A program made the position numbers and the translations under genes. 64,000 nucleotides of DNA, taken from the NCBI GenBank assembly GCA_928724745.1, contig CAKMXJ010000021.1, positions 392,215-456,214 of the forward strand, given 5' to 3'. The notes below the pieces were generated by a model. The model saw only the letters and a program-made list of their open reading frames with translations, had not been told where the DNA came from and ran no database searches. Positions 21,549 through 58,470 of this stretch are shown piece by piece (within the stretch, counting starts at the first letter, position 1; each line of letters starts with the position of its first letter). The DNA comes from Anthracocystis setariae. Its lineage: Eukaryota; Basidiomycota; Ustilaginomycetes; Ustilaginales; Ustilaginaceae.

Positions 21549-23152
21549 ATGGCGCCCAAGAAGAACCCCTCGACTGCGCCCGCTGTTCCTTCACGTCGGT
21601 CGGCTCGGCTGGCCAAGCCACCGGCCGATACTGCTCCTCACTCCGACTCGTCGTCCGGCGCTAGTCAAGCCCCGGCGGAGTCTACTACCCTCACCACGCC
21701 TGCTGTCGTCGTCGTCGCCGCTGCTGTTGACGCACCCGACACCATGACTGTGGCTGCCGCTGTAGCCCCACCTGCTGCAGTGGCCGTGACTGCTGCTGCT
21801 GCCGCGCCGGCCGTCATGGCCGTAGATGTTGTCGCTGCCGCGTCCGACCCCGTGGTTACAGCTCCTATTGTCACCACCTCTGACGCCATCGCGACTCCTG
21901 CTGGTGTTGCTGTGCCAATCGCTCTGACCCCGCCACAAGTCCGGATCTCAACTTGTGTAGCCGGTTCACCATTGGTACCGTTATTCCTTGGTCCCTCGTC
22001 GCGATCTCCGTCGTCGAGTGGGTCGATTTCGCCGCCTCGTTCACCTGTTTACGTGCGTCCTTCGCCGGAACTGTACGTACCATCCTCCCCTCCTGCGCAA
22101 GTTCCCTCCTCCCTGGGTAGATTTACAGCCAAGGAGCTGCGTGCGATGACAAGCGCGCAGCTCCATGATCATGGTCTGACACCGGCCTCGCCGCCCGCGG
22201 AGTCTCGTTCGCCGATCTATGGTGCTGAGGCGGATGCTAGTCCTAGACTCGCCCACACGCCTGACATCGGCCTGCCACTAGGATCGCCTGGCCGCCGAAC
22301 ACCCGAAATCGGCCCGCCACCTATTCGTCGGCCCGAGGACGTGGTGCTGTCACGCGTGGGTCCTCGTAAACCCTCTCTGGTCGAAATGCTGGAGTGGACA
22401 GAGCGATACACCGCCCCTGCTCTGCTCATCGCGATTGTCAACGAGGCCTGGGACCGCGAGTGGCAGCTCGACGATGCCGGGAAGATCTGGTTACACCGAA
22501 CGATGGTGCGCCGCTTGACTGAGGGTAGTTTGCCGTGGCCGAACTACAGCTGCCAGCACTGTGCTGATCTCGATGTACCGTAAGTAACCCTTCCGACATG
22601 TATGGCTCGGGCAGCGCTGACGACCCGCCTCTCTCCTTTCTTGATTTCGATAGATGCTTTCCTGTCACCTACGGTGACCCAACCGGTCCTCGTCCCCGTC
22701 CCGCAGCTTCGTCCTGCTGCCACTGCCTGACGACCAAGAAGAAGTGTGGCGGCCGTACGATCTGGCGCGCCACTCGCCACGAGTACGTCGGCGATAGCCC
22801 TTACTCGACGTTGAGCACAAACGAGCGGGCTGTGGTGCGTGCCCACCTCTCGTACCCTGGTGGTCCCGGCTTGGGCATGGCGTGGCGTCGCGACCGCCTG
22901 GTGGACTGGTTCAAGGAGCGAACCTTCCACCTCGACGCTCGCAATGCCTTCTTGACGGAGGGCACGATCGGGACGCAAGTTCGTGAGACCCTGGCGCGTT
23001 ACCGTCGTGAGAACCGTTCCTTACTTGGCCAGTACCTGCCGTGTGAAGTTATGGAGGAGGAGTCGAACTTCGAGGGTCTTGGCTGGTTCGTGGAAAGCCG
23101 TGGTGACGACGAAGAGGAGGTGCGGTACCACCGCCCTGAGATCTTCCGCTAG
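21549..23152 (+). CDS. Element E accessory protein with double CX2CX6C zinc-cluster-like motif (two exons)
   Basis: Exons 21549-22579 and 22654-23152, intron 22580-22653 (GTAAGT ... TTTCGATAG, 74 bp), 509 residues. I chose ATG 21549 (context catccacgATGg) over an upstream ATG at 21492 in the same frame. The first ~250 residues are Ala-, Ser- and Pro-rich with a basic start (MAPKKNPSTAP). Around residue 335 is CQHCADLDVP, and the spliced junction supplies the next Cys, giving C335-x2-C338-x6-C345. After 19 residues comes C365-x2-C368-x6-C375 (CCHCLTTKKKC). A charged helical tail follows. Paired CX2CX6C resembles Zn(II)2Cys6 DNA-binding domains but with a longer linker than usual. It lies antisense to gag-pol, like the counterparts in C and B. 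DNA binding or regulation is a guess. Confidence 0.75.
22580..22653 (+). other. Intron of the E accessory gene
   Basis: 74 bp with consensus ends GTAAGT and TAG. Without it the first frame continues only one codon (GTA CCG then TAA). With it the two open frames join and a CX2CX6C motif is completed. Confidence 0.8.
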
Positions 23153-23358
23153 CTGTCGTTTAGCAATCCAAGTCGTTTCTGTTGTGCTTGAACACTTTAT
23201 GAATTGGTCGTGATGTCTTTGAGATTTGAGAAAAGAGTGTGAGTGTGTGGCGACGGGTGTCGATGGCGGCCAATTGAATATGCCAACGCACCGCGGTCAC
23301 GTCACGGCGGCTCAATGACCAGTACCGCGCCGCCAAATTTTCAGGCGCGGTCGGATAT

Positions 23359-26300
23359 CTAATTTGTTTGCCGCCGTCCCGTTACTCGAGGAGGTTGCCC
23401 CCCCCGCTTTTCCTCATACTCCTGGATGAGGTCGGGGCAGGCCAGAAGTTTGACGTATTCCCAGGAAGCCTGTTCCTCAGGGTAGCCCTTCCAAAGGACG
23501 CGATATTGGAGCCTTCCAGCGATGGTACGGCGACCCGTGATAGCTTCGACCTCGTACTCAAGATCTTCGTCATGTAGCTGTGGCACTGCCACACGCTCAT
23601 CCCTACCCTCAATCTTGCTGGACCTCAACTTCTTGAGCATCAAGACGTGGAAGACATCATGAACGCGGAGCGACGCCGGCAACTGAAGACGGTACGCTCT
23701 GGCGCCGATGCGCTCGATGATGGGGTACGGCCCAGCGAAGCGAGTGTCGAGCTTGGGACTCGGTCGACGAGTCTTCCAGTTGCGTCGATTGACGTAGACA
23801 AGTTCACCAACCTTGAACTCGACGTCGAGGCGTTTCTTGTTGTACTGCTCGACAGCACGAGTTTGAGCCAATCGTACTTGGTCTTGTAGATAAGCTGTGA
23901 GGTCTGCTTCTGAACGAGCGAACTCCGCTCGTTGAGGGTCGAGCACGCCAGCACGTTCTGGTACTTCAGGATGCATTTTGGGGTTCCACCCGTAGCACGC
24001 AAAGAAGGGTGAGACGCCGAGACTGCTATGTACCACATTGTTGTAGACGAACTCGGCATTGGCTAGTAGCGAGGCCCAGTTGTCCTGCTCGAAATTGCAA
24101 TACATACGGAGGTACTGCTCAACGACTTGGTTGACTCGCTCCGTCTGACCGTCTGTTTGAGGATGATACGCCGTCGACAGCGAGTGCTGGATGGCGTGGA
24201 AATCGGTGTACCGTTTCCAGACCGCGGAGATGAACTGACAACCGCGGTCGGAAACGATATGCTCGGGTGTTCCAAACCGGCGAAACACGTGTTGCTGGAG
24301 GAGCTCAGCAGTGCCAGCCGATGTGATGGTTTTGACCGTCGGCGTGAGCACCGCGAGCTTGGTAAGCCGATCGACGACGACCAGAATCGAGTCGTAGCCG
24401 TCGGAGAGTGGCAAGCCCTCGATAAAGTCCATGGATACCGATCCCCATGGTCTTGAGGGAGTGGCCAACGGCTTGAGCAGGCCGTACGGCCGATGACGGG
24501 GAGCCTTGTAGCGAGCGCAGACCGGGCAGCTCGCTACGTAATCGGCGATCCAAGCACGCATTCCTGGCCACCAGTAATGCCGCTGGGTGAGGGATAACGT
24601 TGCATCCCGACCTGGATGGCCGGCGGTGATGCCGTCGTGACATTGTGTCATCACCATGAAACGCAAGTGTTCCACTGAGAGCGACTGTTCGCTGGCAATC
24701 TTGGCTGAGCGTGTGTCGCGGCGGCCCTGCTTTCCGGCCAACGTGACCCTGGGAATGACGAGTCGGCCATCGCGGTGCCAGAGACCGTCTTTGACCTCGA
24801 AAGGCATGTGCTTGTGGAGCGCCTGGAGCTCGGTGTCGAGAGGTTGGAAAATGCGGGCTAGCTCCGGCAGGCCGCCCTTTACTATTGCCGCCATCGACGA
24901 ACGCGGCTGAATAGCCTCCACTAGGCCGGAGTCGGATCGTAATCGGTCCGGTGACCTATTTTCCGGCAATGCAGTTTCGAAATTGCGGGGGTGGAGGAGC
25001 TGCCGTACGTTGTGTTCACGCTCCTCTGCCGACGGCTCCATATCGTTGCGTCGCGTCAAGGAGTCGGGCTCACCAGCCTTGTCTCCTGGTCGGTACTGAA
25101 CGACGAAATCGAAGTCGGCCAGTAATACAGCCCACCGAGCCTGTCGTCCGCTAATGCGTCGTTGCACTGTGAAGTACTTGAGCGCCTCGTGATCCGAGAG
25201 AACGGAGAACCGAGACGGGAGCCCCGCCAGCATGTGTCGCCACTGATGGAGGCAGGCGACGATGGCGAGGAGCTCTTTGTCATGGATCTCGTAGTTTCTC
25301 TCAGCTGACGTCATCTTGCGCGAGTAGAACGCCACGGGATGCCATCTGTTCTCCGTCTCCTGTTTGAGAACGCCGGCAATGGCGAAGTCGCTGGCGTCAG
25401 TCTCGAGGCGGGTTGACTTGTGATAATCGAAATGTCGCAGTACTCCAGCTGTAGTGAAAGCCTCGATGAGCTTGTGGAAAGCCTCAACCGCCTCCTCCGA
25501 CAACTGGAACTTCTTGAAGCGCTCCGTAGGCTTGATGAGCGATGTGAGAGGCCTCGAGATGCGAGCGAAGTGTGATATGAACCGGCGATAGAAGTTCGCG
25601 AACCCAAGGAAGCGCTGGATATCATGAACCGTCTGCGGCAACGGCCACTCTTTGATGATTCGTACCTTCTCTTGATCCATTTCGATACCTCCTGGCGTGA
25701 TGACGTAGCCGAGGAACTCGACGGTGTCTGTGTGGAAGATGCACTTTGACAGCTTGGCGAAGAGACGGTTCAATTTCAAACGCCGCAGTACTTCGCGGAC
25801 GTGCTCAACATGCTCATCCTCGTTGTTGCTGAAGATGAGGAAATCATCGAGATACACCACGACATAGATTCCGATGATGTCGCGGAAGATGCCGTTGACA
25901 AGAGACTGGAAATGCGAGGGCGCGTTTGCCAGCCCGAAAGGCATGACAAGGTACTCATACAAGCCGAGCTGGGTGCCGAACGCCGTCTTCCATTCGTCGC
26001 CGTCAGCTATGCGTACCAGGTTGTAGGCCGCCTTGAGATCGAGCTTACTGAACACCTTAGCATTCCTTAGGAGGAACAGCTGCTCCTCGATGAGCGGCAG
26101 CGGCGCTCGATTCTTGACAGTGACCTCGTTGAGCCCTCGGTAGTCGACACAGAGGCGGAGGCCGCCGTCCTTCTTCGGCACAAACAGCACTGGCGAGCGC
26201 GCTGGGCTCTTTGATGGCCGAATGAATCCCTTCGCAAGATTCTCGTCGAGGTACTTGCGTAGTTCCTCCATCTCCTTAGGCCCCTTGAGATAGAGTGGGC

Positions 26301-27129
26301 CCTGCGGAGGTTTGGCCCCCGGCACGAGCTCGATGGGCAAGTCCGTGCTGGTGCGAGGAGGCAGCTTGTCGGCCTCGACTTCACTGAAGACCGCCTCGAG
26401 ATCCCGGTATTGCTCTGGGATCGACACTGGAGTCGGTGGTTCAGGCTCCACCTCAATCTCGATGCCCTTGTCTTCGCCGGTAGGGACGAAGCCGAAGCTT
26501 GGCAGCGAGGAGGGTGGAGCATCGATCAGCATAATGCCAATTGGTCCGTCCTGATAGGACGCTTGGACGAGCTGTTGGAATGAGACGAACTCGTTTCCGT
26601 GGACCGTGATACCCGGCTCGTTAGAGGGTAAGGCGCGGCTGATGACACTAAGTGACGGACCGAGGTCGTGTTTAACGCGGCCTAGTGGATCCCGCTGCGC
26701 CGCGGTGAATTTAATTCGGCCCAAAGTCCAGTCGATCCTCGGCTGAAGTGTGCGAAGTTCCTGGTAGCCGATAATGAGATCGAAATCGCTGATGTCCGCG
26801 ACATAGGCCTGCAGCGGCGGTAAAGTTTGCTCGCCGATGTTGACCGTCAGCGTCGCATCGTGAGTGATGGCTAGACGATGGCCGCTGACGCCGTGGACTG
26901 CAGTGGGCTGGGGAGTGGTCTTGATGTTAATACAATATGTGCGGGCGTAAGCGCTTGAGAGAAGAGACAGTGAAGCTCCGGTGTCGGCCAGGATGCGCGC
27001 CGGGCACCCGTTGATGGTGCCGGTAACTTCGAGGACCGATGTATTGGAGTTGGCCGAGAAACACAATGAACAGTTCCGATATATACAGGGTGATGGCGAG
27101 GGCGGTTGCAGGGCAAGACAAGCCATCAT
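23359..27129 (-). CDS. Element E Pol polyprotein with C-terminal chromodomain
   Basis: 1,256 residues, open throughout. In order: protease (ILADTGASLSLL), reverse transcriptase (VPKKDGGLRLCVDYRGLNE, MPFGLANAPSHFQ, catalytic YLDD in VVVYLDDFLIFS), RNase H (RLETDASDFAIAGVL), integrase zinc site (HDGITAGHPG ... CPVCARYK) and the DDE core (SMDFIEGLP, IVSDRGCQF, YHPQTDGQTERVNQVVEQ). The C-terminus is a chromodomain (YRVLWKGYPEEQASWEY), which defines chromoviruses and targets integration to marked chromatin. Translation probably follows termination-reinitiation: the gag stop and pol start overlap as AATGATGG at 27126-27130. All catalytic residues that I can see are present, so the copy may be competent. 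Confidence 0.93.
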   Translation of the reverse strand: MMACLALQPPSPSPCIYRNCSLCFSANSNTSVLEVTGTINGCPARILADTGASLSLLSSAYARTYCINIKTTPQPTAVHGVSGHRLAITHDATLTVNIGEQTLPPLQAYVADISDFDLIIGYQELRTLQPRIDWTLGRIKFTAAQRDPLGRVKHDLGPSLSVISRALPSNEPGITVHGNEFVSFQQLVQASYQDGPIGIMLIDAPPSSLPSFGFVPTGEDKGIEIEVEPEPPTPVSIPEQYRDLEAVFSEVEADKLPPRTSTDLPIELVPGAKPPQGPLYLKGPKEMEELRKYLDENLAKGFIRPSKSPARSPVLFVPKKDGGLRLCVDYRGLNEVTVKNRAPLPLIEEQLFLLRNAKVFSKLDLKAAYNLVRIADGDEWKTAFGTQLGLYEYLVMPFGLANAPSHFQSLVNGIFRDIIGIYVVVYLDDFLIFSNNEDEHVEHVREVLRRLKLNRLFAKLSKCIFHTDTVEFLGYVITPGGIEMDQEKVRIIKEWPLPQTVHDIQRFLGFANFYRRFISHFARISRPLTSLIKPTERFKKFQLSEEAVEAFHKLIEAFTTAGVLRHFDYHKSTRLETDASDFAIAGVLKQETENRWHPVAFYSRKMTSAERNYEIHDKELLAIVACLHQWRHMLAGLPSRFSVLSDHEALKYFTVQRRISGRQARWAVLLADFDFVVQYRPGDKAGEPDSLTRRNDMEPSAEEREHNVRQLLHPRNFETALPENRSPDRLRSDSGLVEAIQPRSSMAAIVKGGLPELARIFQPLDTELQALHKHMPFEVKDGLWHRDGRLVIPRVTLAGKQGRRDTRSAKIASEQSLSVEHLRFMVMTQCHDGITAGHPGRDATLSLTQRHYWWPGMRAWIADYVASCPVCARYKAPRHRPYGLLKPLATPSRPWGSVSMDFIEGLPLSDGYDSILVVVDRLTKLAVLTPTVKTITSAGTAELLQQHVFRRFGTPEHIVSDRGCQFISAVWKRYTDFHAIQHSLSTAYHPQTDGQTERVNQVVEQYLRMYCNFEQDNWASLLANAEFVYNNVVHSSLGVSPFFACYGWNPKMHPEVPERAGVLDPQRAEFARSEADLTAYLQDQVRLAQTRAVEQYNKKRLDVEFKVGELVYVNRRNWKTRRPSPKLDTRFAGPYPIIERIGARAYRLQLPASLRVHDVFHVLMLKKLRSSKIEGRDERVAVPQLHDEDLEYEVEAITGRRTIAGRLQYRVLWKGYPEEQASWEYVKLLACPDLIQEYEEKRGGQPPRVTGRRQTN

Positions 27130-28799
27130 TCGGTTGTCCCACGCCCGTTTCCCTCAACGTCGTGATCATCATCGGCCCCGTCGTCGTCAGCGAGGGGTGG
27201 GAGATCTTCATAACCAAGTGCCTCCTCCTCATCTTGGTCTTCGACGTCCTCTTGTGCTACGGCATCCTCTTGTGCCACGTAGGCTCGAGGTCCAGGTCGT
27301 CGTGGCGCTCCGGTGGCCGTCTCCCGGGCCGGCTGAGGGCAGTCACGCACCCAATGACCCTCCTTACCGCATCGCTTGCACGTGGTGGAGCCGAAAGTCG
27401 TCGGCGAACGATCGTAGACGACGGGCAGGCGTTGGGCCAGATGGGGCGGTAACGGCCGAGGGCGCGCTGGGGAGGGCGTGGCTGCAGCCGGCCGTGCCTC
27501 CACGGCGGACGGTGCCAATACCCGCCCGGCCGCTTTTGCACCGTCGGCGGTCGGGGCGTGAGTTCTTCCAGCCGCCGAGGGGAAATCGTACCGCAATGAG
27601 TTTGAGATCGGCTGAGCGAGGGTCGCTGCACCGCCTTGGTACGTCTGTTGCGCTAAGACCCGGTTGCGGTCCAAATCCTCCACCTCGCGGTAGAACTCCC
27701 ACAACGTCTTCGGCGACGTACGCTCGAATTGACGCTGGAGAACTGGAGTCAAGCCCCGCCGGAAAAGGTGGAGTTTGAGGTGCTTGTCACTCATACCAGC
27801 TCGCTCCTCGAGGGTCCTGAACGCTTCGACGTACTCGCTTGCAGCGCCTGGCTTGTCGGTTGCGAGGCGCAGGGCGTAGAGCTTATTGAAGGCATCCAGC
27901 TTCTCGTCGTGAACGCCGTAGAGCTGCTTGAGCCGGTTGACGAAAAGGGTCCAGTCACCGAACAATGCGCCCGACTGGGATGGATCGGCACGTAGTTTGG
28001 ACCGGTACCAAGTGAGAGCCCGACCCTTGAGATGCGGTCCCAGGAATTGGATCCTCTTGCGGCCGTCGGACATCTCCTGATACCGGAACCAGGCCTCGAC
28101 CTGGATGAGCGACATCTCCAAGTCATTCTCTTGCCAGTCGGGGAAGTCAAGCTTCGGGTCGCTCTTGGCAGTATTGCGCTCGAAGGTTGCTTCCCGTGCC
28201 GTCATGGTGGGATGGTCCCAGGCGGGGCGTCGGCCGGTGGAGGTCGAATACAAGTCCTCCTGACTGTACTCTTCGTTCCAGCGTAGGGCTGACGCCACTG
28301 GTCGACGGGCAGGGGTAGAGCTACCCAACGGAGCAGAGCGCCGAGGGTCATCATGCATGCTGTACGACCTCTCCTCGTGCGCTTCGTGTCCAGGGGCGAC
28401 GGCGGCGACCTCTGGCTCACCCCCTCGGCGTAGAGCTGGCTTGATCAGCTCCCTGAGGTCTGCGATCTCGGCCTTGAGCGCGAGGATCTCCTCCTGTTGC
28501 GCCGTGAGGGGTCGCGACGTAGCTGGAGTAGCTATCAGGGGCGTGGACGACGACTTGAAGCCGGTCGCCTGGTCCATAAGTGTGTAGAGCTTCTCCTGGA
28601 AGCGGAGTCGGTCCTGACTCTCTTTCAGCATGGCCTCCTGTCGACTAGCTTCGTAAACCATGCGTTGATTATGGACCTCCTTCATCTGAAGTCGGATGTC
28701 CTCAATTAAGCCTTGCAGCAATGGTTCCGGATTCGCTGCAGGAGGCGACGAAGCCCGGCTGCGAGGAGTGCTGCCTCGCGGCGCGGCTGCGTCGGACAT
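27126..28799 (-). CDS. Element E Gag
   Basis: 557 residues from ATG 28799. An N-terminal coiled-coil segment (residues about 30-120, including TAQQEEILALKAEIADLREL) precedes the retrotransposon Gag capsid region (VEAWFRYQEMSDGRKRIQFL ... RSKLRADPSQSGALFGDWTL). A CX2CX4HX4C zinc knuckle (CKRCGKEGHWVRDC) follows, and the C-terminus is acidic (DQDEEEALGYEDLPPL). It ends four bases into pol. Gag assembles the cytoplasmic virus-like particle and packages element RNA. Confidence 0.92.
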   Translation of the reverse strand: MSDAAAPRGSTPRSRASSPPAANPEPLLQGLIEDIRLQMKEVHNQRMVYEASRQEAMLKESQDRLRFQEKLYTLMDQATGFKSSSTPLIATPATSRPLTAQQEEILALKAEIADLRELIKPALRRGGEPEVAAVAPGHEAHEERSYSMHDDPRRSAPLGSSTPARRPVASALRWNEEYSQEDLYSTSTGRRPAWDHPTMTAREATFERNTAKSDPKLDFPDWQENDLEMSLIQVEAWFRYQEMSDGRKRIQFLGPHLKGRALTWYRSKLRADPSQSGALFGDWTLFVNRLKQLYGVHDEKLDAFNKLYALRLATDKPGAASEYVEAFRTLEERAGMSDKHLKLHLFRRGLTPVLQRQFERTSPKTLWEFYREVEDLDRNRVLAQQTYQGGAATLAQPISNSLRYDFPSAAGRTHAPTADGAKAAGRVLAPSAVEARPAAATPSPARPRPLPPHLAQRLPVVYDRSPTTFGSTTCKRCGKEGHWVRDCPQPARETATGAPRRPGPRAYVAQEDAVAQEDVEDQDEEEALGYEDLPPLADDDGADDDHDVEGNGRGTTE

Positions 28800-28825
28800 G
28801 TCGAGTACGAGGCGCTGCTTGAACG

Positions 28826-28835
28826 ATCCACTCTA
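28826..28835 (-). promoter_or_regulatory. Element E self-priming primer-binding site
   Basis: TAGAGTGGAT in element orientation, two bases from the 5' LTR. It is perfectly complementary to ATCCACTCTA inside the same LTR (plus coordinates 29429-29438). That is the arrangement used by Tf1/sushi elements, whose RNA 5' end primes reverse transcription. No tRNA match is evident. Confidence 0.65.
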
Positions 28836-28836
28836 A

Positions 28837-29950
28837 TGTCAGCGGTCGGGCGCCTGGTAAATAGGCCGATCTTGTTTCGAGAGCGGTGCGGTCCTGTTGG
28901 GCTGGGCCGCCGAGTTTGGGTTACGCGCCTGGTCAACTGGGTAGTACAAGGTGGGTTGCGCAGATACGTCGGCGGTCCGATGAGGACGACTGGGCCGCAC
29001 TCGACTTAGCGGCGGTGGAGAGTGGGCTTCTCGACCGCGTTCGACCTATTACCGACTGACGCTGTTGGCGCTCCGTTCAGCGGCAGCACGACGTACTCGG
29101 TATTATGGCGTGATAGCCTGGTGTCTCGCGAGCGCTCTTGGCGAAACAGAAGGCTGGTTGACTATCTAGGTGAACACTGGGAGTGATCACCAAGCTGTTA
29201 CGGTGACGGCTTATGGTCTGACGTACCGGTGTCAGCTTGTCTGCAGCTGTCAAGCGCTACAGTGCCGATACGGGTGCTGACGAGATCTAGTTGTTCTCCG
29301 ACTCGAACGGAGGCACGTGAGAAGCTGCAATGCTTACTGTATTGCAACTTACTAAACTAGATACTGGAATGATCGTGAAGAAGACGTTAAGAAGCTATAC
29401 TGAGCTGAGAGACTGGTGTTGTAAGAAGTAGAGTGGATGAGGAGCTCATCCACTACGAGCCAGATGAGTAGGCCTTAAGTATGACTGCTCCAAGCCCCTA
29501 TGACAAGGCTGATCCGGCGCTAGCCTATTGTCTAGCTGCACGGCCGGCGTGTGCGCATGTACTGACCGTGGTACAAGCGGCTGATCACCTCCAAGCCTCT
29601 GAGAGCGCCTAAGATGGTGTCCCTTGACTGTTGATCACCTCGAGATGGCGTTGTCGCGATCCGGCGTCTCTGCGCTGTCGAACGGCCGCAATCCGACTGC
29701 TATGGACGAAAACGGCTGAGAGAGACCTTTTGAGCCGCACTCACTCCGAGGGCGGCCGAAAAGCGTGTTTTCCACCGCTCCAACTTTGCCCCCCGTGAGT
29801 AACGCCACTACTAAATTCGGCGCACTGCTGGTCACGCAGCTCCCCTCACCCGAATGCGAGGGCGGTTGACTATAGCCCTCTTAACCGCGCTTGAACCGAA
29901 GGCGGCCGGAAAACCAGTTCTCCGCCGCCTCAGCTTCGCTGCCTGTAACA
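28837..29950 (-). repeat. Element E 5' LTR
   Basis: 1,114 bp with the same termini as 20261-21373. It contains the self-priming complement at 29429-29438 and is followed by the second CAGAA duplication (29951-29955). Confidence 0.92.
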
Positions 29951-29955
29951 CAGAA

Positions 29956-31443: not shown

Positions 31444-31490
31444 TTACAATCGACCTCCCCGTTGCCGTCAACGCGGAGACTCCAGCTACC

Positions 31491-34246: not shown

Positions 34247-34247
34247 T

Positions 34248-37578: not shown

Positions 37579-37579
37579 T

Positions 37580-48307: not shown

Positions 48308-48312
48308 CCCGC
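48308..48312. repeat. Target-site duplication of D (left copy)
   Basis: CCCGC, repeated at 56730-56734. Confidence 0.93.
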
Positions 48313-49414: not shown

Positions 49415-50575
49415 CTATCGCGACAAGCTACCCACGTACTCGTCGTCGTCATCGTCATAAAGATGGATGAGGTGTTCATCATCCTCGTCGGAGCTATTTT
49501 CGCCTTCCGTTTCCTCTGCCTCCTCCTCTTCGTCGTTATCGGCGACGGGAGTTGGGTTACAAGGTCGGCGAGGACGAGGGAAACTAGCGGAGGGACGAGC
49601 AGGCGACGGCGACATGGGAGTGGTGGGAGCGGCGGCGAGTTGTCGGTTGTTGGAAGGAGCAGCTCCAGACGCGGTACCTTCAGCGGTAGGACGAGGTCGA
49701 CGTGGAGCAGAACGACGAGGACGGCGATGGGGGAGCAGAGCGTCGGCAACATTGCCACCAGTAAGAATGTCCGGCATGTCAATGTTGAGCAGGGACGAGA
49801 GCAAGTTGATGTCAACGATAGCTGCATCGAATTCCAGCTGACGAGTAAGTCCGTTCACATGCATCCGCAGTCGAGCCAACGCATTAGCGATGGCGACACG
49901 GTCCTGCCGTCCACGCGTTTTGCGGTGGTTGTCGCCGATCAAGGTACAGGACTTGCCGTGTCTGTGGCACAGATCACAGCTGTCCGTACGCTGCTTGCCA
50001 GTCATATCGAACCCGGTACCCGTAGTGCAGATGACGCCCTTCTTCATGCAATAATCGCATCCAGGCAATTTGACCCAATATCCTTGTCGAATTACCTCTT
50101 GCTCGTCGGAAGGGAAGTCAGCAAGGGTCTCCCGCTGATTGGTAGTCCCTGCAGGCAGCGGGAACGCGAAGCGTCTACGCTTGCCCGGCGTTTCAGGGGA
50201 AGCGGTACGCCCTTGGCGACGACTGGAGGACGATGCATTAACAGGGGGAGTGGAAGTCTGACCAGGGATTTGGTCTTCGGCAGGAATTGGCTCACCACGA
50301 ACGATCGATCTCGTATAAGGAGTACCACCCCTCAAGCGGCGCTGTGAGGGGGGCGGGGGAGATGGCGTTCGGACGTCAGCTAAGTCGATTACTTCAGGCG
50401 GAGCGCTCTCACGTGCTTTTCCTGCACGGGTAAGTGCAGGGCGAGAACTGGAGGCGGCTGCCGACGTCGGGGGAGCGCTTGAAGATGGGGCGGAGTTACG
50501 GGAAGCGGAATTAGTGCTGGACTTAGTCTTGCCGTTGTTGTTCCCTTTGCCGCGACCGCGGCCTCGTTTAGGCAT
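49415..50575 (-). CDS. Copia D accessory protein with double CX2CX6C zinc-cluster-like motif
   Basis: 386 residues from ATG 50575 (MPKRGRGRGKGNNNGKTKSS), whose basic start could serve as a nuclear signal. An ATG-initiated extension of 21 residues upstream has unlike composition. After a Ser/Pro-rich region comes a basic patch (PGKRRRFAFPLP). The cluster is C173-x2-C176-x6-C183 (CDYCMKKGVIC), 16 residues, then C200-x2-C203-x6-C210 (CDLCHRHGKSC). A helical segment (IANALARLRMHVNGLTRQ) follows, then a Pro/Arg-rich stretch and an acidic C-terminus (DDEHLIHLYDDDDDEY). The motif matches the accessory proteins of E, C and B, though this element is copia and the gene is sense. It is probably expressed from a subgenomic or spliced RNA or its own promoter. 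Function unknown; nuclear DNA or RNA binding is plausible. Confidence 0.78.
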   Translation of the reverse strand: MPKRGRGRGKGNNNGKTKSSTNSASRNSAPSSSAPPTSAAASSSRPALTRAGKARESAPPEVIDLADVRTPSPPPPSQRRLRGGTPYTRSIVRGEPIPAEDQIPGQTSTPPVNASSSSRRQGRTASPETPGKRRRFAFPLPAGTTNQRETLADFPSDEQEVIRQGYWVKLPGCDYCMKKGVICTTGTGFDMTGKQRTDSCDLCHRHGKSCTLIGDNHRKTRGRQDRVAIANALARLRMHVNGLTRQLEFDAAIVDINLLSSLLNIDMPDILTGGNVADALLPHRRPRRSAPRRPRPTAEGTASGAAPSNNRQLAAAPTTPMSPSPARPSASFPRPRRPCNPTPVADNDEEEEAEETEGENSSDEDDEHLIHLYDDDDDEYVGSLSR

Positions 50576-51372
50576 AGTGAGACAAGAGTAACAGATGCGG
50601 TACAAGGTAAAACAGCAGGGGAAATCTTGAGAATGCAACGGTAAGAGCGTATATGCACCGTGACGGAATTATCGATGTAGGTAATGACTTGCAGCGACCG
50701 GAGGAAAAGATAGTCGTGTGAATCCGACCGAAGAGGCGAACCGTGAGAGGAAGAAGACACCAGCTCCTAGTCGAGGAGGCTGGCAACCGAGGGGAGATGT
50801 GGATTGAGGCCACGAGGCGTTGAGCGACAATGGCAACGAGTAAGCGTTGGCGTTGTTGAACGCGCGTGAGAGGGAATGAGACAACCGATGCTTGATGATG
50901 ATCACCGACAGCTACAGATGTAGTGCCGGGTCGGTTGAGGAGTGGTTGAGGAGGAACGGGAAGAGAGTGGCGGCGGTTGTTGAAAACAAGTAGACCCTGC
51001 GTCGGCTAGCTCGCGCTAGAGTCCAGAAAAAAATTTTCTCGCTTGATCGGCATGAGATGCCGCAGTTTTATTTTTGTTTTATTTTACTTGCCGCTGTCGA
51101 GGAAGTTCGGCCGAAGTCTGGAACTGTAAATCGGAATCGGAAAATATTTACCTGAATCGGGAATTCGAGAATTATCGCGCGATAATAATTTTAACGGCGA
51201 TGTTATGTTGTTCCAGTGACGCTATATGTACTAACGACGTTGTTAAGTCGGTTGCGTTTACGCGACACGTCGAATTAGGAATTTTGACGTGATAATTAGT
51301 GATTTTCACGCTACCCATTACTGTTAGGTCGGGAATAATTTGCGCGTCACGTCAATTTGAATTTCGGCGCGC
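50576..51372. other. Copia D spacer between pol and accessory gene
   Basis: About 800 bp, AT-richer near 51020-51350 than the rest of the element. It should contain the pol 3' end signals and the promoter or splice acceptor for the accessory gene. No ORF, obvious TATA box or repeat was found. Confidence 0.5.
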
Positions 51373-54300
51373 TTAGTTTGCACGCGCCTCGGAAATCGGC
51401 ATATCGATCCTGCCGATACCGAGTAGTTGTCGGTGGGTTTGAACTTTTGACCGATCAAGGGCTTTGGTAAAACAGTCTGCAGCTTGTTCCGCTGTCGGTA
51501 TATACGTAGCGACGACTGTACCCTTCGTTTGCTGCTCTCTGACAAAATGATATTTGATGTCGATGTGCTTGTTCCTTTGGTGGTCCTTTGGGTCCTTCGA
51601 GAGGTATATAGCTGCCTGATTATCAACCATTAACGGTGTCGGTAGCTTGACAACGAAGCCCAATTCGGCCAGCAGGCGTCTGGTCCACACAACTTCCTTG
51701 CACCCTTCAGCCATTGCAACGTATTCTGCGAAGCAAGTGGATGTTGCAACGAGTGTCTGACGTTTTGAAAACCAACTGTAAGGCATGCCGAGGACGGTAT
51801 TAGCTAGCCCTGTTGTTGATCTCCTAGTCACTGTGTCACCACCGAAATCTGCATCTGAAAAGGTGTAAATCTTGGGACCCCAGTCTTCCGACATGGGAGA
51901 TTTGATACCTTTGTCGGTAAAGGTGAGACCGTGATCTGCAGTGCCTTTCAGATATCGCAGCAAGTGCTTGGCTGCAACCATAGCATCCTTAGTGGGGGAT
52001 GCCAGGTGTCTGCTTAGCTTGCTTACTGCAAATGCTATATCGGGCCGTGTGCAGGTCGCTATATATAGGATTGATCCCACAATAGTTCGGTAGGTGGAGT
52101 GATCGTCTTCGTTGAGCTTATCGCCGCCGGTAAGGTCCTTACCGTCAGCGGGAGTGTGCACTGTGTTTGCCTGGGATAGGCCGAATTGGTCAATCAATCG
52201 GAGGATATTGGCTGTTTGGGACAGGTGGATCATGCCGTTGTCGTGTTTCACTTGGATTCCTAGGATGAACGACACCGGGTCGCCTCCAGTCATCTTGAAC
52301 TTGGAGCGTAGTGTTTCAATGATTCGTTCTGCTTGTCCCCTGTCTTTGCAGAAGATGAGGACATCATCTACGTATAGGGAAAGCAGTACCGGTGGAGCGT
52401 TGTCGTTAACGATGTAGTATAGTGCTGTATCGTAGTTGCTCCTCGTGAAACCTATATCGATCAAGGTACTGTCGGCCTTCTGGTACCATGCTCTTCCTGA
52501 CTGTTTCAGGCCATATAGGGCCTTATTTAGTCGACAGACACGACCAAGTGAGATGCCTTCCGACGTCGCCATGCTGTCTGGAAGAGGGGGAGGTCTCATG
52601 TAGAGATCTTTATCAACTGTACCATTCAAGTAGGCTGTGACGACGTCTAGTTGGTAGATCTGCATCTTGCACTGGAGGGCAATGATCATTAACATCCTGA
52701 GCGTAGCGATTTTAACGACAGGGGCAAAGGTCTCTTCATAGTCGATACCATGAATTTGGGTGAAACCTTGTGCTACCAATCTCGCCTTGTACTTATCGAT
52801 GGAACCATCACCTTTACATTTGACTTTGAACACCCAACGACAGCCAATAATATGGGCGTCGTTTGGAGGGGTGACTACGGTCCAGGTGTTGTTTTCCTTA
52901 TGCGAATCGAGCTCCTTTTGGATTGCCTCTTGCCACTTGGGCCAGTCCGGACGTCGTTGAGCCTGTTTTATATGTAGAGGCTCGTCGTCAATTGTCGGTA
53001 TGGCAATGCCTTTGTCTGCACAGGCTGCCTCAGTGAATTCCTGCCCCCCCTCCTCTGCAACCGTAGCGTAAGCCATTCCGGCCATTTCTGCAGCTGTAGG
53101 TAAGGGAGGAGTGGAGATACCCTGAGCACGCTCCTCGTCCGTAAGGTGAGGATAGCCTGTGTAATAAGGGCCATTGTCAACAGATGACGTGATGTCGATG
53201 CCGTCTGAGGCAGTTCCATCTTGTGGGGAGTTGATTGCTAGTGATTCGAAAGTGCGAGTGGCCATAGGCTGGTGAACAATGGCCTGTGGCTCTTGGTTTG
53301 GCGATGATGTCGCGTTGCCGACGTCGGCAGTGACTGCATCCGTAGGGATGGGCCTGTCGGTGAAGGGGAAAGATTTTTCGTCGAAGGTAGCATGATGAGC
53401 AGACATTATAGTGTTGTGGTTTGTCTGGAACAACTTGAATGCCTTAGAGCCTTCGGTAACGCCAATGTAGACTGCGGGAATAGCTCTGTCGCTTAGTTTA
53501 TCGCGATTTGCTGCTGGGATGTGTGCCCAGGCCTTGCATCCAAATACCTTGACCTTGGAGAGGTCGGGATCTTGGTTGAAGAGTCTCTTGTACGGTGAGA
53601 CCATGCCAATGGCCTTACTTGGAAGACGATTGTTAAGATACACTGCATAGAGGGCTGCTTCACCCCATAGATAGCGAGGTGCAGAGCTGTGGATGAGCAT
53701 AGCTCGAACTTGATTAAAGATGGTCAGGTTCAGACGTTCGGCAACGCCGTTCTGTTCAGGGGTGTACGGTGACGACGTCTGGTGGATGATACCTGCGTCG
53801 GCAAGGAACTTGCCGAAAAGGCGATTACAGTACTCGCTACCATGATCGGTGCGGAAGCGTTTTATTTTCTTTCCGGTCTGAGTTTCCATGAGGGTCTTGT
53901 AGTTCTGAAAATGGGAAAGCGCTTCCGACTTCTGTATCATCAAGTAGATGACGGAGAATCGAGTATAGTCATCTGTGAAGGAGATGAGGTATCGGTGTCC
54001 TTCGGGAGTAACGTCAGGTAGCTTACCGACGACGTCAGAGTGCACTAATTCCAGTGGCTCCGTTGTACGCGTCGTTCGAGTAGGAAACGGTTGCTTGTGG
54101 GATTTGGCGACCTCGCAGGAGTTGCATTTACCAATGGGGACGCCTTTACTGAATTCGGGAATGAGCTGGGCCATCCCTTTCATCCTAGCGTCCCCTGGAT
54201 GACCTAAACGATCATGCCAGAGGCTTGCAGATGTCGTTGTGACTCCCGCGAATTCGAGTTTAGGTTGAACGAGGTACGTAAGCATCCCATTCGTAGTTGT

Positions 54301-56010
54301 TCCTTTGAAGACGATTTTACCACCTTGGCGAGCTGTGAGCGTGTTCTTGAAGATGCTGATCTGTGCAGTCTTGGCGACCAAGTTAAGGGACATAAGATTG
54401 GCGGCATACGTCGGTACGTATAAAACATTGTGGAGAATGAGGGTATGCGTTTTCCCGTTACCGAGATCGGCAAGTACCTTAACGGTCCCCTTACCCTCTG
54501 TCTTTACGTGGTCACGACTGCCGCTCAGCAGAGGAGGGAACTCCTCAAGGCTGAGATCTGTAAAGAGATCACGATTGATACAAACGTGAACAGTGGACGC
54601 GGAATCGATAATCCATTGCGTCTCAATGCCGTAACCGCTGTCGGTAGTGGACAAAGCGATGTCGGCAATGGCAAGGCCGGTGAAGAAGGAGGATTGTGAC
54701 TTCTTGTCGGAGGGTTGTGCTGCTTTATCCTTAGCCAAGGTAGGGCAATCAGGTCTATAATGACCCTTTTCATGGCAATGATGGCAGGACACTTCCGACA
54801 AGGGACGGCGTGGTTTGATCCCTTTGTTGGTCTTGCCGCGTCTGTTGTTGCGTTGACGCTTATCTGGAGATGATGAAGATGTCGACTTGTGTCTCCATTT
54901 GCTGTTACGATTCTTGGCAGATTTGGAGCTGGAATCATCCGTCTTGGTGTCGGTCAGGAATGCGGAAGTGTTTTGCCGAGGTCGGGCAGCTAAACCAAAG
55001 GTATGTAACCCCTGTCTTATTTCCTCGGCCTTGAGTTGGTCAAGGTAGCTATCGTACTCAATCTTCTCGTCCAAGGGGGTCCCTTGGAAGTTGAACGTCC
55101 TAACGGTACCGTCAGGGTCCATAGAGGTGAAGGTTTGTACATCCCGACGTCGTCTGTAACTTTCCTTGAGCTGACTTCGAACGGTATGGTATTCCGATCG
55201 GAGACCCTTCATTAAGACGGTGAAGCGCTTATTCCAGCTGACTTCAATGCCTCCAAGCTTAAGTTGTTCAACTAGCTTGGTGATTCGTGTGTTATAGGCG
55301 GAGATAGTAGTCTTGTCTTGCTTAATGCTATTGAGCTGTGTTTCGAATTCTTCAATCTTGTATCGTAGCTTAGCGCTAAACGACTTCTCCAGATGCTTCC
55401 ATATTCCGTTAGCCGTTTCATGGTGGTTTACCATGGTTGCGATTTCGAGTGACATGCTCGACAGTAGGATACCGCGAGCGATAAGGTTGTAACGACGCCA
55501 GTCTCGATACTCGTCAGTACCGGGAGCAGGTATAGGCGTTTCTGTCATGATGGCATCATAGATGTCTGGGCCCTTTTGCATTAGAGTTGTGATGCAGGTG
55601 GCACGCCATTTGAAATAGTCGACAGAGTCGTCAAGGTCCGGGAGTTTTTGCCCGTTGGAGAGAAGCTGCGTAGCGAAATCGGAAGTAACCTTAGACATGT
55701 TGACAGGTCTGTAAGGTTGTAACGGAGTTGATACCGTGCGTACCGACGAAGGTAGGGGCTCTTGAATAGGAACTTCGCTGTCTTGTACAGCGGAAACGAT
55801 ATTTTGTGTTGCAGATGAGGCTTCGCTGGTCACTACAGCGGGAACAGTGTTTTCGTTATTGCGAACTGTATGGTCTCTCGAGCGTCGCGATTGTGCGGAT
55901 CGAGGAGGTACTGGGTCTCCGACGTCTGGAATCGAAAGAAGAGACCTTACTGGATTGTTTCTTGTGTTGTAGCGTCGGTATTCTCCCAGTCGTGAAGCCG
56001 TTGGGCTCAT
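51373..56010 (-). CDS. Copia D Gag-Pol polyprotein
   Basis: 1,545 residues, uninterrupted, ATG 56010 lying inside the primer-binding site. Gag (YFKWRATCITTLMQKG, then NGIWKHLEKSF) ends with the zinc knuckle CHHCHEKGHYRPDC. Protease: WIIDSASTVHVC, with DSA at the active site instead of the commoner DSG. The integrase comes before RT, as in copia elements: zinc site HDRLGHPG ... CNSCEVAK, catalytic positions in LVHSDVVGKLP, RTDHGSEYCN and QNGVAERLNLTI. RT: GCRWVFKVKCKGDGSIDKYK, QLDVVTAYLNG and YVDD in LSLYVDDVLIFCKD. RNase H: IYTFSDADFGGD and KHIDIKYHFVRE. A second in-frame Met (MSKVTSDFATQLL) is an alternative start about 100 residues in. All catalytic residues appear intact. Confidence 0.95.
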   Translation of the reverse strand: MSPTASRLGEYRRYNTRNNPVRSLLSIPDVGDPVPPRSAQSRRSRDHTVRNNENTVPAVVTSEASSATQNIVSAVQDSEVPIQEPLPSSVRTVSTPLQPYRPVNMSKVTSDFATQLLSNGQKLPDLDDSVDYFKWRATCITTLMQKGPDIYDAIMTETPIPAPGTDEYRDWRRYNLIARGILLSSMSLEIATMVNHHETANGIWKHLEKSFSAKLRYKIEEFETQLNSIKQDKTTISAYNTRITKLVEQLKLGGIEVSWNKRFTVLMKGLRSEYHTVRSQLKESYRRRRDVQTFTSMDPDGTVRTFNFQGTPLDEKIEYDSYLDQLKAEEIRQGLHTFGLAARPRQNTSAFLTDTKTDDSSSKSAKNRNSKWRHKSTSSSSPDKRQRNNRRGKTNKGIKPRRPLSEVSCHHCHEKGHYRPDCPTLAKDKAAQPSDKKSQSSFFTGLAIADIALSTTDSGYGIETQWIIDSASTVHVCINRDLFTDLSLEEFPPLLSGSRDHVKTEGKGTVKVLADLGNGKTHTLILHNVLYVPTYAANLMSLNLVAKTAQISIFKNTLTARQGGKIVFKGTTTNGMLTYLVQPKLEFAGVTTTSASLWHDRLGHPGDARMKGMAQLIPEFSKGVPIGKCNSCEVAKSHKQPFPTRTTRTTEPLELVHSDVVGKLPDVTPEGHRYLISFTDDYTRFSVIYLMIQKSEALSHFQNYKTLMETQTGKKIKRFRTDHGSEYCNRLFGKFLADAGIIHQTSSPYTPEQNGVAERLNLTIFNQVRAMLIHSSAPRYLWGEAALYAVYLNNRLPSKAIGMVSPYKRLFNQDPDLSKVKVFGCKAWAHIPAANRDKLSDRAIPAVYIGVTEGSKAFKLFQTNHNTIMSAHHATFDEKSFPFTDRPIPTDAVTADVGNATSSPNQEPQAIVHQPMATRTFESLAINSPQDGTASDGIDITSSVDNGPYYTGYPHLTDEERAQGISTPPLPTAAEMAGMAYATVAEEGGQEFTEAACADKGIAIPTIDDEPLHIKQAQRRPDWPKWQEAIQKELDSHKENNTWTVVTPPNDAHIIGCRWVFKVKCKGDGSIDKYKARLVAQGFTQIHGIDYEETFAPVVKIATLRMLMIIALQCKMQIYQLDVVTAYLNGTVDKDLYMRPPPLPDSMATSEGISLGRVCRLNKALYGLKQSGRAWYQKADSTLIDIGFTRSNYDTALYYIVNDNAPPVLLSLYVDDVLIFCKDRGQAERIIETLRSKFKMTGGDPVSFILGIQVKHDNGMIHLSQTANILRLIDQFGLSQANTVHTPADGKDLTGGDKLNEDDHSTYRTIVGSILYIATCTRPDIAFAVSKLSRHLASPTKDAMVAAKHLLRYLKGTADHGLTFTDKGIKSPMSEDWGPKIYTFSDADFGGDTVTRRSTTGLANTVLGMPYSWFSKRQTLVATSTCFAEYVAMAEGCKEVVWTRRLLAELGFVVKLPTPLMVDNQAAIYLSKDPKDHQRNKHIDIKYHFVREQQTKGTVVATYIPTAEQAADCFTKALDRSKVQTHRQLLGIGRIDMPISEARAN

Positions 56011-56014
56011 AACC
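56002..56014 (-). promoter_or_regulatory. Copia D primer-binding site (initiator tRNA-Met anticodon arm) containing the gag-pol ATG
   Basis: In element orientation GGTTATGAGCCCA begins right after the 5' LTR. Its complement TGGGCTCATAACC matches the anticodon arm of fungal initiator tRNA-Met (core GGGCUCAUAACCC). The anticodon CAU pairs with the ATG at 56010-56008, which is the first codon of the polyprotein. Confidence 0.78.
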
Positions 56015-56729
56015 TATTGGAAGTCGACTGCGTCAAGGGGCGACCTTGACGGTAGGCAGCCAGGTACGATGAGTCTATCGTCTGCCAAAGATACTATAAC
56101 AAGTAGCTAAGTCGCTATAGACCTCACACTGGTGGATGGGCGTATAGAGCTGGCTCTGTTGTTATGTCAGGCCAGTTAGATCCGTAACCAAGAGTGGGCG
56201 GTGACGTTAGGCAGCAGGCACGAAGGGGAGAGACCTATGTCGATATAACAGTAGCGACGTCGGTAAGGATCTGTAAGTAGCAGGCGTTATGATACGGAGA
56301 AGTTGGTAATGAATCGATTAAGGGATCATCAACTGTGCGCTCGAAGTACGCCCTATAAATACACTTAGTCCCCTACGCCGTTGTTGCCCGTAGCGGTGTA
56401 GGGAACCCCATAGCGTCGACGTTAGTGACAAGATTCTACGCTAAGTGTAAACAACAGTTGATCATCAACATAAACAACGATGTTGACAATAACATGACCC
56501 GACGAGTAACATCCCGGTCAGAGATGTGATGAGGCACCATGTCAACGTCACGTGGGAACGCACAGTGCCAGCATTGGCATTGGCACGCGCATAGTTTCCC
56601 CGCTGCCGAGTCCCGAGGAACTGTATTGTCGGCAACTATGTCGGAATATCACCGCCCTAGTTATGGACATACCGACGTCTGTAGTGTCACGTCGATAGCT
56701 GACGCAGCAGGTGACCATATGTTTCAACA
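56015..56729 (-). repeat. Copia D 5' LTR
   Basis: 715 bp, same as 48313-49027. It is followed on the right by the second CCCGC target copy. Confidence 0.95.
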
Positions 56730-58470
56730 CCCGCATGTCCCTCACCACCGCCTGAGCGCGGCGGCGCTGGGCACGCCTCTCCGGCTCGGGAGAGGCGGGG
56801 CGCAGCCCACCCAACGGAAGGCGCTTCCCCCCGGTCTGGAAGCTCCCCGGGAGGCGTTTCCCTCCCGTCTGGGAGCCCCCAGGCAGGCGTTTACCCCCGG
56901 TTTGGGGACGAGACCCTCCAGCCCGGGGGGGCCTTTCCCGCGTCGGGGTCCCGGGGCGCTGCCTTTTCGCGCGCGCCAACTCCGGGGTTGCCGGAGCATA
57001 ACCCGGAGGAGAGACCCTCCGGGGGCGGGACGGCCCAGCCTCAGCACTGGGGCGGGGAGCAGCCGCCACGCGAGCAGGGACGGCGGCGGGAGCAGGGGCA
57101 GGGGCAGGGGCAGCGGGAGCCACTACCGGGGGCGGGGGAGGAGGCGGGACGCCAAGCTCCTGAGTGATGCCTCCAAAGGCATGACTCACACCCTCCACGT
57201 ACCGGAGGATGTTCTCGTCCCGGTACGACCAGGCGAGACGGCGCTCCGCTCCCACGGCAGCGGTCCGGCGCAGCACTTGCACCAGGGCGGCGACGACGCC
57301 CGCCGCGTGCGTAGCGGCCTCCCGGGCCCCGGCCATATGTTGCTCCCCGGGAGCATCGAAGGGGCACATCTGGCGGAGGGCCAGGGGTGCGTCGTGCACG
57401 AGGGTGGTTTGTCTCCACCCCCGCTGGCCCCGGGGAGGCCGGGAGCTCGGGGCGCTGCTGCTCCCACCGGTGGACGGCCCAGCGGGAGACTCGGGAGCCC
57501 GGGGTCGACTCCCCGCCTTGGCTTGCCGCCGAGCCTCATACCGAGCACGCGCGGGGGCGTACTCGGCCGCCAGGTACTCCGGGAGGTCCGCCGCGGAGAA
57601 GGAGGTGAAAGGCATCCCGGGGTTAGGACGTTGTCCCCGGGATCGGAGAACAAGGTAAGCTTCCATAAGGAAGCCACCCTCCTGGCGCCCCGTGATGTCC
57701 GGGACGCGACCTTGCCAGTCGCAGGGATACCCCGCGGCATGGCACCTCTCACACGCGGCAGGCTGACCGTCCCGGGGGTCTCCCGAACCCCCGACGTCCC
57801 GGTGCGCAAATCCCAGGGAGCACTGCGGGTGGGGTTTTTTCTTGCTGTTGGCGCACGACCAACACTGCCCGTACCCCTCAGAAGCGGGAGGGGTACCCCG
57901 TGCTCGGACCTCCCGGACCAACTCTGCCAGCCTCCCGGGATCCCCGATCGTCACACCGACCCCGGGAGTTGGGGCGGCCACGTTCAAGGACCCGGGGGTG
58001 ACCCCACTGCGGGGGGCCACCGCGGCACTGGCATCCTGGCCCGGGAGCCCGGGAGCCTGCTGCCCATCTTCCCGGCGCGGAGATGTATTCCGCGCCGGGG
58101 ACTCGTCCACAATCCTGGAAGCCGGGATCAATTCGGCTCCAGCTTCCCCGCCCTCCCGAGCGGGGGACTCGTCCGCATACAGGGAGACCACGTCTCCCTC
58201 TTGGGCCACGTACCGGCCCGACTCGTCCACGACCTCCGGGGCACTCACTCCCCGGGACTCGTCCACAACCTCCGGGGCCATAACGCCCCGGGACTCGTCC
58301 ACGGCCATAGCTTGTTCGGGGGCGGGGGCAGAGCCTCCCGCTACCCCGGAGTCGGAGCCACCGCGCCGGGTGGAGGATCGTGTTGCTGCGTTCAAATGGG
58401 AAAGGCAAAAGATGTCAGTGATCCGTCCCCGCCTCGAACCTCGGGTCCCGGAACAGTACTTACTACGCAT
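56730..58470 (-). pseudogene. Element B accessory gene, 5' part: cysteine-cluster protein interrupted by copia D
   Basis: A 7-nt first exon (ATGCGTA, 58470-58464), an intron of 78 bp (58463-58386, GTAAGT ... ACGCAG) and a long second exon. With the 3' piece at 48117-48307 the gene totals 1,854 nt (617 residues). The frame is also open upstream without splicing, but that extension is hydrophobic and lacks a better start. VDES/ADES motifs recur about six times in the first 120 residues. Cysteines 177, 180, 191 (CWSCANSKKKPHPQC) and 214, 217, 224 (CERCHAAGYPC) form two clusters. DWQGRVPDITGRQEGGFL then MEAYLVLRSRGQRPNP matches element C. A Pro/Ala-rich stretch and three QTGGKRLP repeats follow. 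A TATATAAG box lies about 85 bp upstream. Antisense to B gag-pol; function unknown. Confidence 0.78.

Follow-up and report, generated by a model that had tools for sequence, protein, structure and literature searches.

Paired cysteine-cluster accessory genes between pol and the 3′ LTR of gypsy and copia retrotransposons in Anthracocystis setariae

Long terminal repeat (LTR) retrotransposons are usually taken to need gag and pol only. The window analysed here, a stretch of 64,000 nucleotides from the fungus Anthracocystis setariae (contig CAKMXJ010000021.1, positions 392,215 to 456,214), contains nested LTR retrotransposons, three of the gypsy type (E, B and C) and one of the copia type (D), and a preliminary description had noticed in each of them an additional gene between pol and the 3′ LTR that encodes two cysteine clusters. 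The locus therefore raises the question whether these frames are genuine genes of the elements, how far they recur in the genome and what their products may do. The window is the terminal 64 kb of its contig, in a genome of 21.47 Mb with 36 contigs and a GC content of 57%. We found that many LTR families in this fungus genuinely possess the additional gene as an accessory gene, and this conclusion draws on its recurrence, a rule of position and orientation, the cysteine clusters, selection on the genes and an intron in the E gene.

The additional gene was confirmed in E, C, B and D from the open frames, and its position and orientation were fixed by the LTRs and polypurine-like tracts. The D gene (49415–50575, minus strand, sense to gag-pol) is a single frame of 386 amino acids with the start codon at 50575 and the stop at 49415, and encodes CX2CX6C-X16-CX2CX6C. 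The E gene lies on the plus strand, antisense to gag-pol, and consists of two frames joined by an intron. Exon 1 (21549–22579) begins with the start codon at 21549, 175 bp from the 3′ LTR, and carries the first two cysteines of cluster 1; the intron (22580–22653) has 74 nt with a GTAAGT donor, a CTGAC branch-like site and a TAG acceptor; exon 2 (22654–23152) carries the remainder of cluster 1, cluster 2 and the conserved C-terminal part. Splicing completes the third cysteine of cluster 1 and gives CX2CX6C-X19-CX2CX6C. The C gene (43049–44572, minus strand, antisense) encodes CX2CX4CX4C and CX2CX5C; the window copy has intact clusters and one in-frame stop (331 + 191 codons), and the gene is a single frame of 522–542 codons in six of the eight C loci loaded. 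The B gene (56730–58470, minus strand, antisense) encodes CX2CX10C and CX2CX6C, and its final codons (48117–48307, minus strand), which match the end of intact copies, were cut off by the insertion of D. B and C share the segment MEAYL.....G.RPNP. The cysteine spacings of all four genes and this shared segment were as first described, for E after splicing.

When the 195 window frames of at least 100 amino acids were scanned, the strict motif was found in D only and the loose motif only in D, C and B, the E motif appearing after splicing only. Shuffling of residues within the frames gave an average of 0.0 frames with the strict motif and 0.05 with the loose motif (at most 2). Chance open frames were ruled out by this result together with the selection on the genes described below.

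The intron of the E gene was followed across the family. Exon 1 was present in all 15 loaded loci, and the intron measured 68–75 nt in these 15, taking all three residues modulo 3, with donor and acceptor kept; the spliced frame remained open with intact clusters in 15/15 loci despite the varying intron length. Because the length varies while the spliced frame stays open, the pattern is strong sequence-level evidence for a translated, spliced antisense mRNA. The D gene, on the other strand relation, is one uninterrupted frame in 15/15 close copies, as would follow from a sense gene passing through the genomic RNA, and the survival of the intron in E fits its antisense orientation, since introns lying antisense escape splicing of the genomic RNA and so outlast retrotransposition.

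Relatives of the accessory genes are encoded at 130 places in the genome; all four elements noticed at first are real carriers, and their count was too low both in places and in families, as two more copia families and one more gypsy family carry such a gene. Genome searches returned 64 matching rows for the C query and 79 for the B query, and since each of these queries retrieves the other at 31–44% identity, B and C form one family. The D query gave 46 rows, made up of 16 full-length copies at ≥92% identity and 30 distant ones (32–42%, over or around the clusters), and the E exon 2 query gave 27 rows. RVT_2 (81 rows) and RT_RNaseH (143 rows) were used as markers for placement. The counts took 20 C, 39 B and 25 E places after removal of rows that were a further piece or another frame of a copy already included, and 79 “carrier-type” RT_RNaseH rows (≥113 bits) with 42 others (54–78 bits); the 22 omitted rows were 5 fragments (84–105 bits) and 17 under 50 bits.

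A B, C or E gene was found in antisense orientation 1.5–4.3 kb downstream of 65 of the 79 carrier-type RNase H domains, and none of the 79 had it in sense only. Among the other gypsy RNase H domains, 2/42 had such a gene in this range, one per orientation. The reverse check found a carrier-type RNase H domain at the expected place for 65 of the 84 B, C or E genes. The close D copies all (16/16) sit 2.4–2.5 kb downstream of a copia reverse transcriptase (RT) in sense orientation, and 25 of the 30 distant D types have a sense copia RT upstream (2.2–2.8 kb for D and distant D together); for one close and four distant copies the nearest RT was of gypsy type, and the copia RT was taken from the RVT_2 listing. 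Orientation is linked to superfamily, antisense in the gypsy carriers and sense in copia, and what had been noticed in four elements holds genome-wide. A decayed relative of the E gene (C28:1930612-1931049; 60% identity, with a stop) was also seen near a contig end, beside a gypsy fragment.

The ratio of nonsynonymous to synonymous substitution (dN/dS) was computed by the Nei-Gojobori method, with medians over pairs with dS of 0.05–1.5 only. The medians were 0.25 for B (91 pairs), 0.31 for C (25), 0.14 for D (97), 0.27 for distant D (26), 0.27 for E exon 1 (90) and 0.13 for E exon 2 (93). At the level of 60-column alignment segments, the corresponding proportions (pN/pS) at and just after the clusters were 0.05–0.19 in B, C, D and E exon 2; the value was 0.03 at cluster 1 in E exon 1 and 0.21–0.28 in distant D. 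Other constrained segments were B columns 541–600 (0.10), the segment just before the clusters in D (0.00) and the D C-terminus (0.04). As an internal neutral control, the stretch preceding the D start codon gave 1.06; the B segment across the start gave 0.83, and the Ser/Pro-rich N-terminal parts were mostly at 0.4–0.8, being lower in D (0.00–0.29) and in one E segment (0.17). Furthermore, the cysteine spacing is conserved in other copies: all six cysteines are invariant in 11/11 D-type and 10/10 B/C sequences, the E clusters are intact in 15/15 loci, and CX2CX6C is kept twice in 12/12 distant D loci. The accessory genes are under purifying selection within their families.

Nine further elements were read 3–4 kb downstream of pol; a tenth stretch (L075) is the flank beside L064. 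The gypsy element E-prime (L073, 1290-aa pol frame) has an antisense, E-like paired-cluster gene with no intron, so that the rule linking introns to orientation is permissive and not strict. Among copia elements, L067 (1384-aa pol frame) has a sense gene with two CX2CX6C and L066 (1360-aa pol frame) a sense gene with CX2CX11C plus CX2CX6C. By motif scan and reading of long frames, which is also the basis for L074 below, no paired clusters were found downstream of pol in the gypsy elements L069–L072 (pol frames of 1219, 1243, 1564 and 1476 aa) or in the copia element L068 (1361 aa). Two of these gypsy elements, counted as non-carriers, show a single CX2CX6C in short sense frames (L070:2478-3107, plus; L071:1282-1629, minus), and a Tc1/mariner-like transposase (DDE_3, Sleeping Beauty helix-turn-helix) lies downstream of the gypsy pol at L072:1762-2817 on the minus strand.

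In the RT tree, whose 1476-aa row is not an RT match and is to be disregarded, E, E-prime, C, B and L089 (the RT of the L074 element) come together and are split from the non-carriers with a support of 99; RT identity is 84% between E and E-prime and 71% (partial) between B and C. On the copia side, D joins the distant D types (61–62% identity), and the 1360 and 1384 types group with a support of 84. The accessory proteins of E and E-prime are 30% identical against 84% for their RTs, so the accessory gene diverges much faster than the RT. This difference, along with the lack of the intron in E-prime, suggests either fast divergence or replacement of the gene.

The clusters had been likened to those of Zn(II)2Cys6 regulators, and capture of a host zinc-cluster gene, or exchange between the superfamilies, had been offered as the explanation. 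CX2CX6C half-sites are present in the D types and in E, with linkers of 16–20 residues; the usual Zn(II)2Cys6 linker is 5–12 residues. The D types, E, B and C all depart from the full Zn(II)2Cys6 spacing of CX2CX6C, short linker and CX2CX6–8C, given these long linkers in the D types and E, the CX2CX10C of B, and the CX2CX4CX4C and CX2CX5C of C. In Pfam, 10 of 11 D-type proteins matched Zn_clus (PF00172), all under its gathering score (best E-value 0.13; window D 1.6). Direct membership of PF00172 was rejected, as all matches were sub-threshold or absent. In the genome, PF00172 was matched 98 times, in no case within 3 kb of one of the 130 extra genes, which are thus not ordinary PF00172 members; no host donor gene was found either, and capture of a host gene is no more than a possible origin. 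A Zn_clus profile made of six host Zn(II)2Cys6 domains with GAL4 and LAC9 was then compared by hhalign. The pooled D types aligned with it at a probability of 83.7% (E-value 8e-6), with six cysteines aligned and a longer linker, and 0/60 Cys-fixed permutations were as good. B/C reached 21% over one cluster, with 0/60 permutations as good. The likeness to Zn(II)2Cys6 thus stood for the pooled D types only, and did not stand for E, as given below.

Among the families, pooled D types against pooled E and E-prime gave 83–84% (E-value 8.7e-6), with a score of 38.0 against a permutation maximum of 31.5 (0/200). It is the distant D types that carry this signal (78% against E): the window D family by itself gave 2.4% against E and 2.2% against E-prime, and the distant D types gave 2.2% against E-prime. 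E against B/C scored 26.8 with a permutation maximum of 24.9 (0/200), at a probability of just 22%. D types against B/C gave no evidence of likeness, 28/200 Cys-fixed permutations being as good, and the genes of copia-1384 and copia-1360, each a single sequence, stayed at ≤10% against every other family by profile. Hence similarity across the superfamilies was upheld for the pooled D types and E, and fell away for window D against E and for B/C against D. The proposal that all four window genes demonstrably form one family by profile comparison was rejected on the failure of D against B/C and the 2.4% of window D against E.

We give an even chance to the joint reading that this is a genuine accessory gene whose product is a zinc-module protein that works on nucleic acid inside the nucleus. 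Such binding by way of a zinc module is suggested by the Zn(II)2Cys6 likeness of the D types, by basic stretches resembling nuclear localization signals (NLS) in 7/8 family representatives, and by the parallel with plant aORFs taken up at the end. In gypsy elements the gene would have its own antisense transcript, running from in or near the 3′ LTR tail-to-tail towards pol; because the start codon of the gypsy gene is near the 3′ LTR (175 bp in E), the LTR or its immediate surroundings probably hold an antisense promoter. In copia elements it would be expressed in sense, probably from the spacer of ~0.8 kb after pol. The two clusters may fold as a compact zinc module, which in the D types would resemble Zn(II)2Cys6 but have a longer linker; a helical segment, perhaps for dimerisation, would come next, and the flanks would be basic and Ser/Pro-rich. 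In the low-confidence AlphaFold model of D, each CX2C is followed by a short helix and cluster 2 by two long ones, and the model of B/C has similar short helices, in a stretch below a pLDDT of 50, and helices after the clusters. The protein could then tune the expression of its element in the nucleus or steer the pre-integration complex, a role modelled on what has been proposed for antisense accessory proteins of plant and retroviral elements.

Several results weigh against this joint reading. No Pfam Zn_clus match was obtained for B/C (0/10), E and E-prime (0/2), copia-1384 or copia-1360, and the cluster spacing of B/C departs from that of Zn(II)2Cys6. E did not match the Zn_clus profile, 37/60 permutations being as good, and no strongly basic 10-mer was present in the E copy examined. 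Confidence in the AlphaFold models is low (mean pLDDT 53 and 55), and no fold match came from them. Two of the 12 distant D loci (L055 and L063) have shortened frames, and 14 of the 79 carrier-type gypsy RNase H domains have no detected gene at the expected place. These 14 include window B, which is interrupted by D, and E-prime (C28:678351), in which the gene was found on direct reading; in another of them, the B-like element L074 (C27:83974), no paired clusters were found downstream.

The origin of the genes may be viewed in two ways. It is possible, though doubtful, that a single lineage of zinc-cluster regulators has resided in both Ty1/copia and Ty3/gypsy elements and moved between them, occupying the same slot in opposite orientations. 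Introns would then have been purged from the sense copia genes and a spliceosomal intron would have survived in antisense in chromoviruses, and the elements would run a transcription or targeting factor of their own that diverges fast between families and is under purifying selection within them. Alternatively, copia and gypsy elements took different zinc-cluster genes, the likeness of D and E being convergence on a small module, and we place this only a little short of evenly balanced. The opposite orientation in the two superfamilies agrees with separate captures, as do the match of the pooled D types, and not of E, to Zn_clus, the B/C-D similarity within the permutation range, and the values of about 2% for window D against E and for distant D against E-prime. 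What argues for a common source is the sharing of one slot by both superfamilies, the likeness of pooled D to E beyond the cysteine positions (0/200; distant D against E at 78%), and that of E to B/C beyond permutations, though at the low probability given above.

The mode of action has its own alternatives. Gag zinc knuckles with RNA-chaperone roles are standard, and the zinc modules might likewise bind element RNA or Gag in the cytoplasm, as an RNA chaperone, a nucleocapsid-like helper or a copy-number control factor. The B and C spacing unlike Zn(II)2Cys6 is consistent with such a role, as is the knuckle in the E gag; yet that knuckle means that E already has one in Gag, C and D show sub-threshold knuckle matches, the pooled D types match Zn_clus, and seven of eight representatives have the NLS-like stretches, points that together are not decisive. 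We regard a cytoplasmic role as rather unlikely. The antisense unit could also work as RNA, with double-stranded RNA regulating or silencing the element, and its antisense location downstream of pol in the gypsy carriers would suit this; regulation by antisense RNA has been considered for the plant aORFs (PMC7264820). The protein-level constraint (median dN/dS 0.13–0.31), the frame kept across an E intron of varying length and the sense orientation of the copia genes make this improbable, and RNA as the sole role is disfavoured by the codon-level constraint. Lastly, an Env-like third gene, coding for a membrane or movement protein, would occupy just this slot, which equals that of retroviral env, and would be sense as in copia. 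A 19-residue segment of mean hydropathy ≥1.6 was present in 12/15 E sequences but in none of 53 B, C, D, distant D, E-prime, copia-1384 and copia-1360 sequences; the E stretch is a low-complexity, Ala/Val-rich N-terminal one within a fast-evolving part, and the conserved part is Cys-rich and not hydrophobic. We hold this possibility to be very slight.

The elements that carry the genes were delimited as follows. Element E (20261–29950) has LTRs 94.5% identical and a 5-bp target duplication, CAGAA. On the minus strand it comprises the 3′ LTR (20261–21373; partner 5′ LTR 28835–29950), pol (23359–27153; protease, RT, RNase H, integrase and chromodomain) and gag (27126–28832; Retrotrans_gag with a CCHC knuckle). 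Element C (37084–45698), with the target duplication GACAT, has identical (100%) LTRs (5′ LTR 37084–37578, plus strand; 3′ LTR 45204–45698), and its gag-pol region (37476–42508, plus strand) was defined by stop-to-stop frames, two in the window copy. The pol of E and of B ends in a chromodomain, which was not found in the scanned pieces of the C copy (two frames). Element B is bounded by an LTR copy at 31094 or 33897 and by its 3′ LTR (58756–59105, plus strand; 99.7–100% identity to 31094–31443 and 33897–34246), is broken by C and D, and showed no target duplication; the 3′ part of its pol (45537–47792, plus strand) holds RNase H, integrase and chromodomain. Its 5′ part (LTR and start of gag-pol) is doubled in tandem at 31094–36698, in units of 2.8 kb that are 99.7% identical. 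Element D (48312–56729) also has identical (100%) LTRs (3′ LTR 48312–49027, minus strand; 5′ LTR 56014–56729), with a copia gag-pol (51373–56013, minus strand; RVT_2 and integrase) and a target duplication CCCGC from by-eye reading of the flanks with the LTR start taken as 48313.

Other features were seen around these elements. An inverted relic of the D LTR and gag start (89–91% identity) lies at 9774–11100, and a further gypsy element of another clade (RT 22–24% identity to C and E) at 12753–17368 on the minus strand; its relative L071 showed no paired-cluster gene downstream. E is flanked by frames at 18287–20284 and 29815–31092 with matches to OrsD plus C2H2-like fingers and to a DEAD helicase, which are probably one gene interrupted by E, and this gene resembles subtelomeric helicase genes, the window being at a contig end. 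A 712-aa frame at 61752–63887 (minus strand) has a C-terminal OTU cysteine protease domain (E-value 7.4e-8) and adjoins four near-identical repeats of ~300 bp at 59132–61137.

A third gene under selection is thus present in several families of both large superfamilies in one small genome, and the question of the function and origin of additional open reading frames (ORFs) becomes testable in one organism, where the gypsy families in which no such gene was found serve as natural controls. In the intron of E, the sequence gives good evidence of an antisense retrotransposon transcript that is a true mRNA. The families probably make a regulatory protein of their own, and if these proteins bind DNA, the elements would have a route to control their expression or to choose their targets.

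Outside this genome, a protein (P0001) on an independent public contig of 3.8 kb aligns with 56% of the B query at 37% identity, with all six cysteines and the block EG...MEAYL.....G.RPNP preserved, which places the B/C type beyond this genome as well; no D relative was found in the protein set searched, which seems poor in fungi. The fungal Zn(II)2Cys6 proteins (PF00172; GAL4, LAC9) have two CX2CX6C halves like the D types here, and the present genes differ from them in their linkers of 16–20 residues, the sub-cut-off scores, the B/C spacing and the location in retroelements. Products of the HBZ kind are bZIP-type proteins. Deltaretroviruses are described as having antisense genes with a nuclear regulatory product, HBZ/APH-2 (PMC11963269), and HTLV (human T-cell leukemia virus) as having an antisense promoter in the 3′ LTR (PMC7264820). 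These animal retroviral genes have the antisense orientation in common with the gypsy genes, and no sequence relation is claimed.

Zhao et al. 2011 is reportedly the paper cited for brtn of the fungal element Boty. This gene of Boty (BcGypsy1) in Botrytis cinerea is an antisense additional gene between pol and the 3′ LTR (PMC7264820); it is reported for Boty-like elements of ascomycetes and, by description and not by sequence, it shares with our gypsy genes the fungal gypsy setting, slot and orientation (PMC7264820, PMC8365987). The plant Ty3/gypsy aORF-3R (Grande gene23, RIRE2, Retand TRP28) likewise lie antisense between pol and the 3′ LTR and are kept in most copies of a family, and a nuclear or DNA-binding role has been proposed for them (PMC7264820, PMC11963269). 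They carry TRP28 and SMC domains, paired cysteine clusters not being among the features reported in the portions available, and unlike them the paired-cluster genes here are also found in sense in copia (PMC7264820, PMC11963269). LTR elements of bdelloid rotifers share ORF3 types with Terminons and Penelope-like elements, so that there, as here, accessory ORF types are common to very different retroelements; the rotifer ORF3 are GDSL esterases, DEDDy exonucleases, coiled-coil or transmembrane proteins with no significant departure from neutrality, whereas the present genes encode cysteine clusters and have dN/dS well below 1 (PMC5408684). In agreement with the preliminary description, which knew of no such family, open-access titles and abstract openings held no description of paired-Cys or zinc-cluster genes in fungal LTR elements, and the accessible main text of a paper on smut LTR elements (PMC9603552) is without “zinc”, “antisense” or “gag”. 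Antisense extra genes in LTR elements and the sharing of extra ORFs between distant retroelements are already known (PMC7264820, PMC11963269, PMC8365987, PMC5408684). New, as far as the literature listings go, are paired-Cys accessory genes, in part Zn(II)2Cys6-like, in the gypsy as well as the copia elements of a single fungal genome, together with an orientation set by superfamily and the strong constraint at the protein level.

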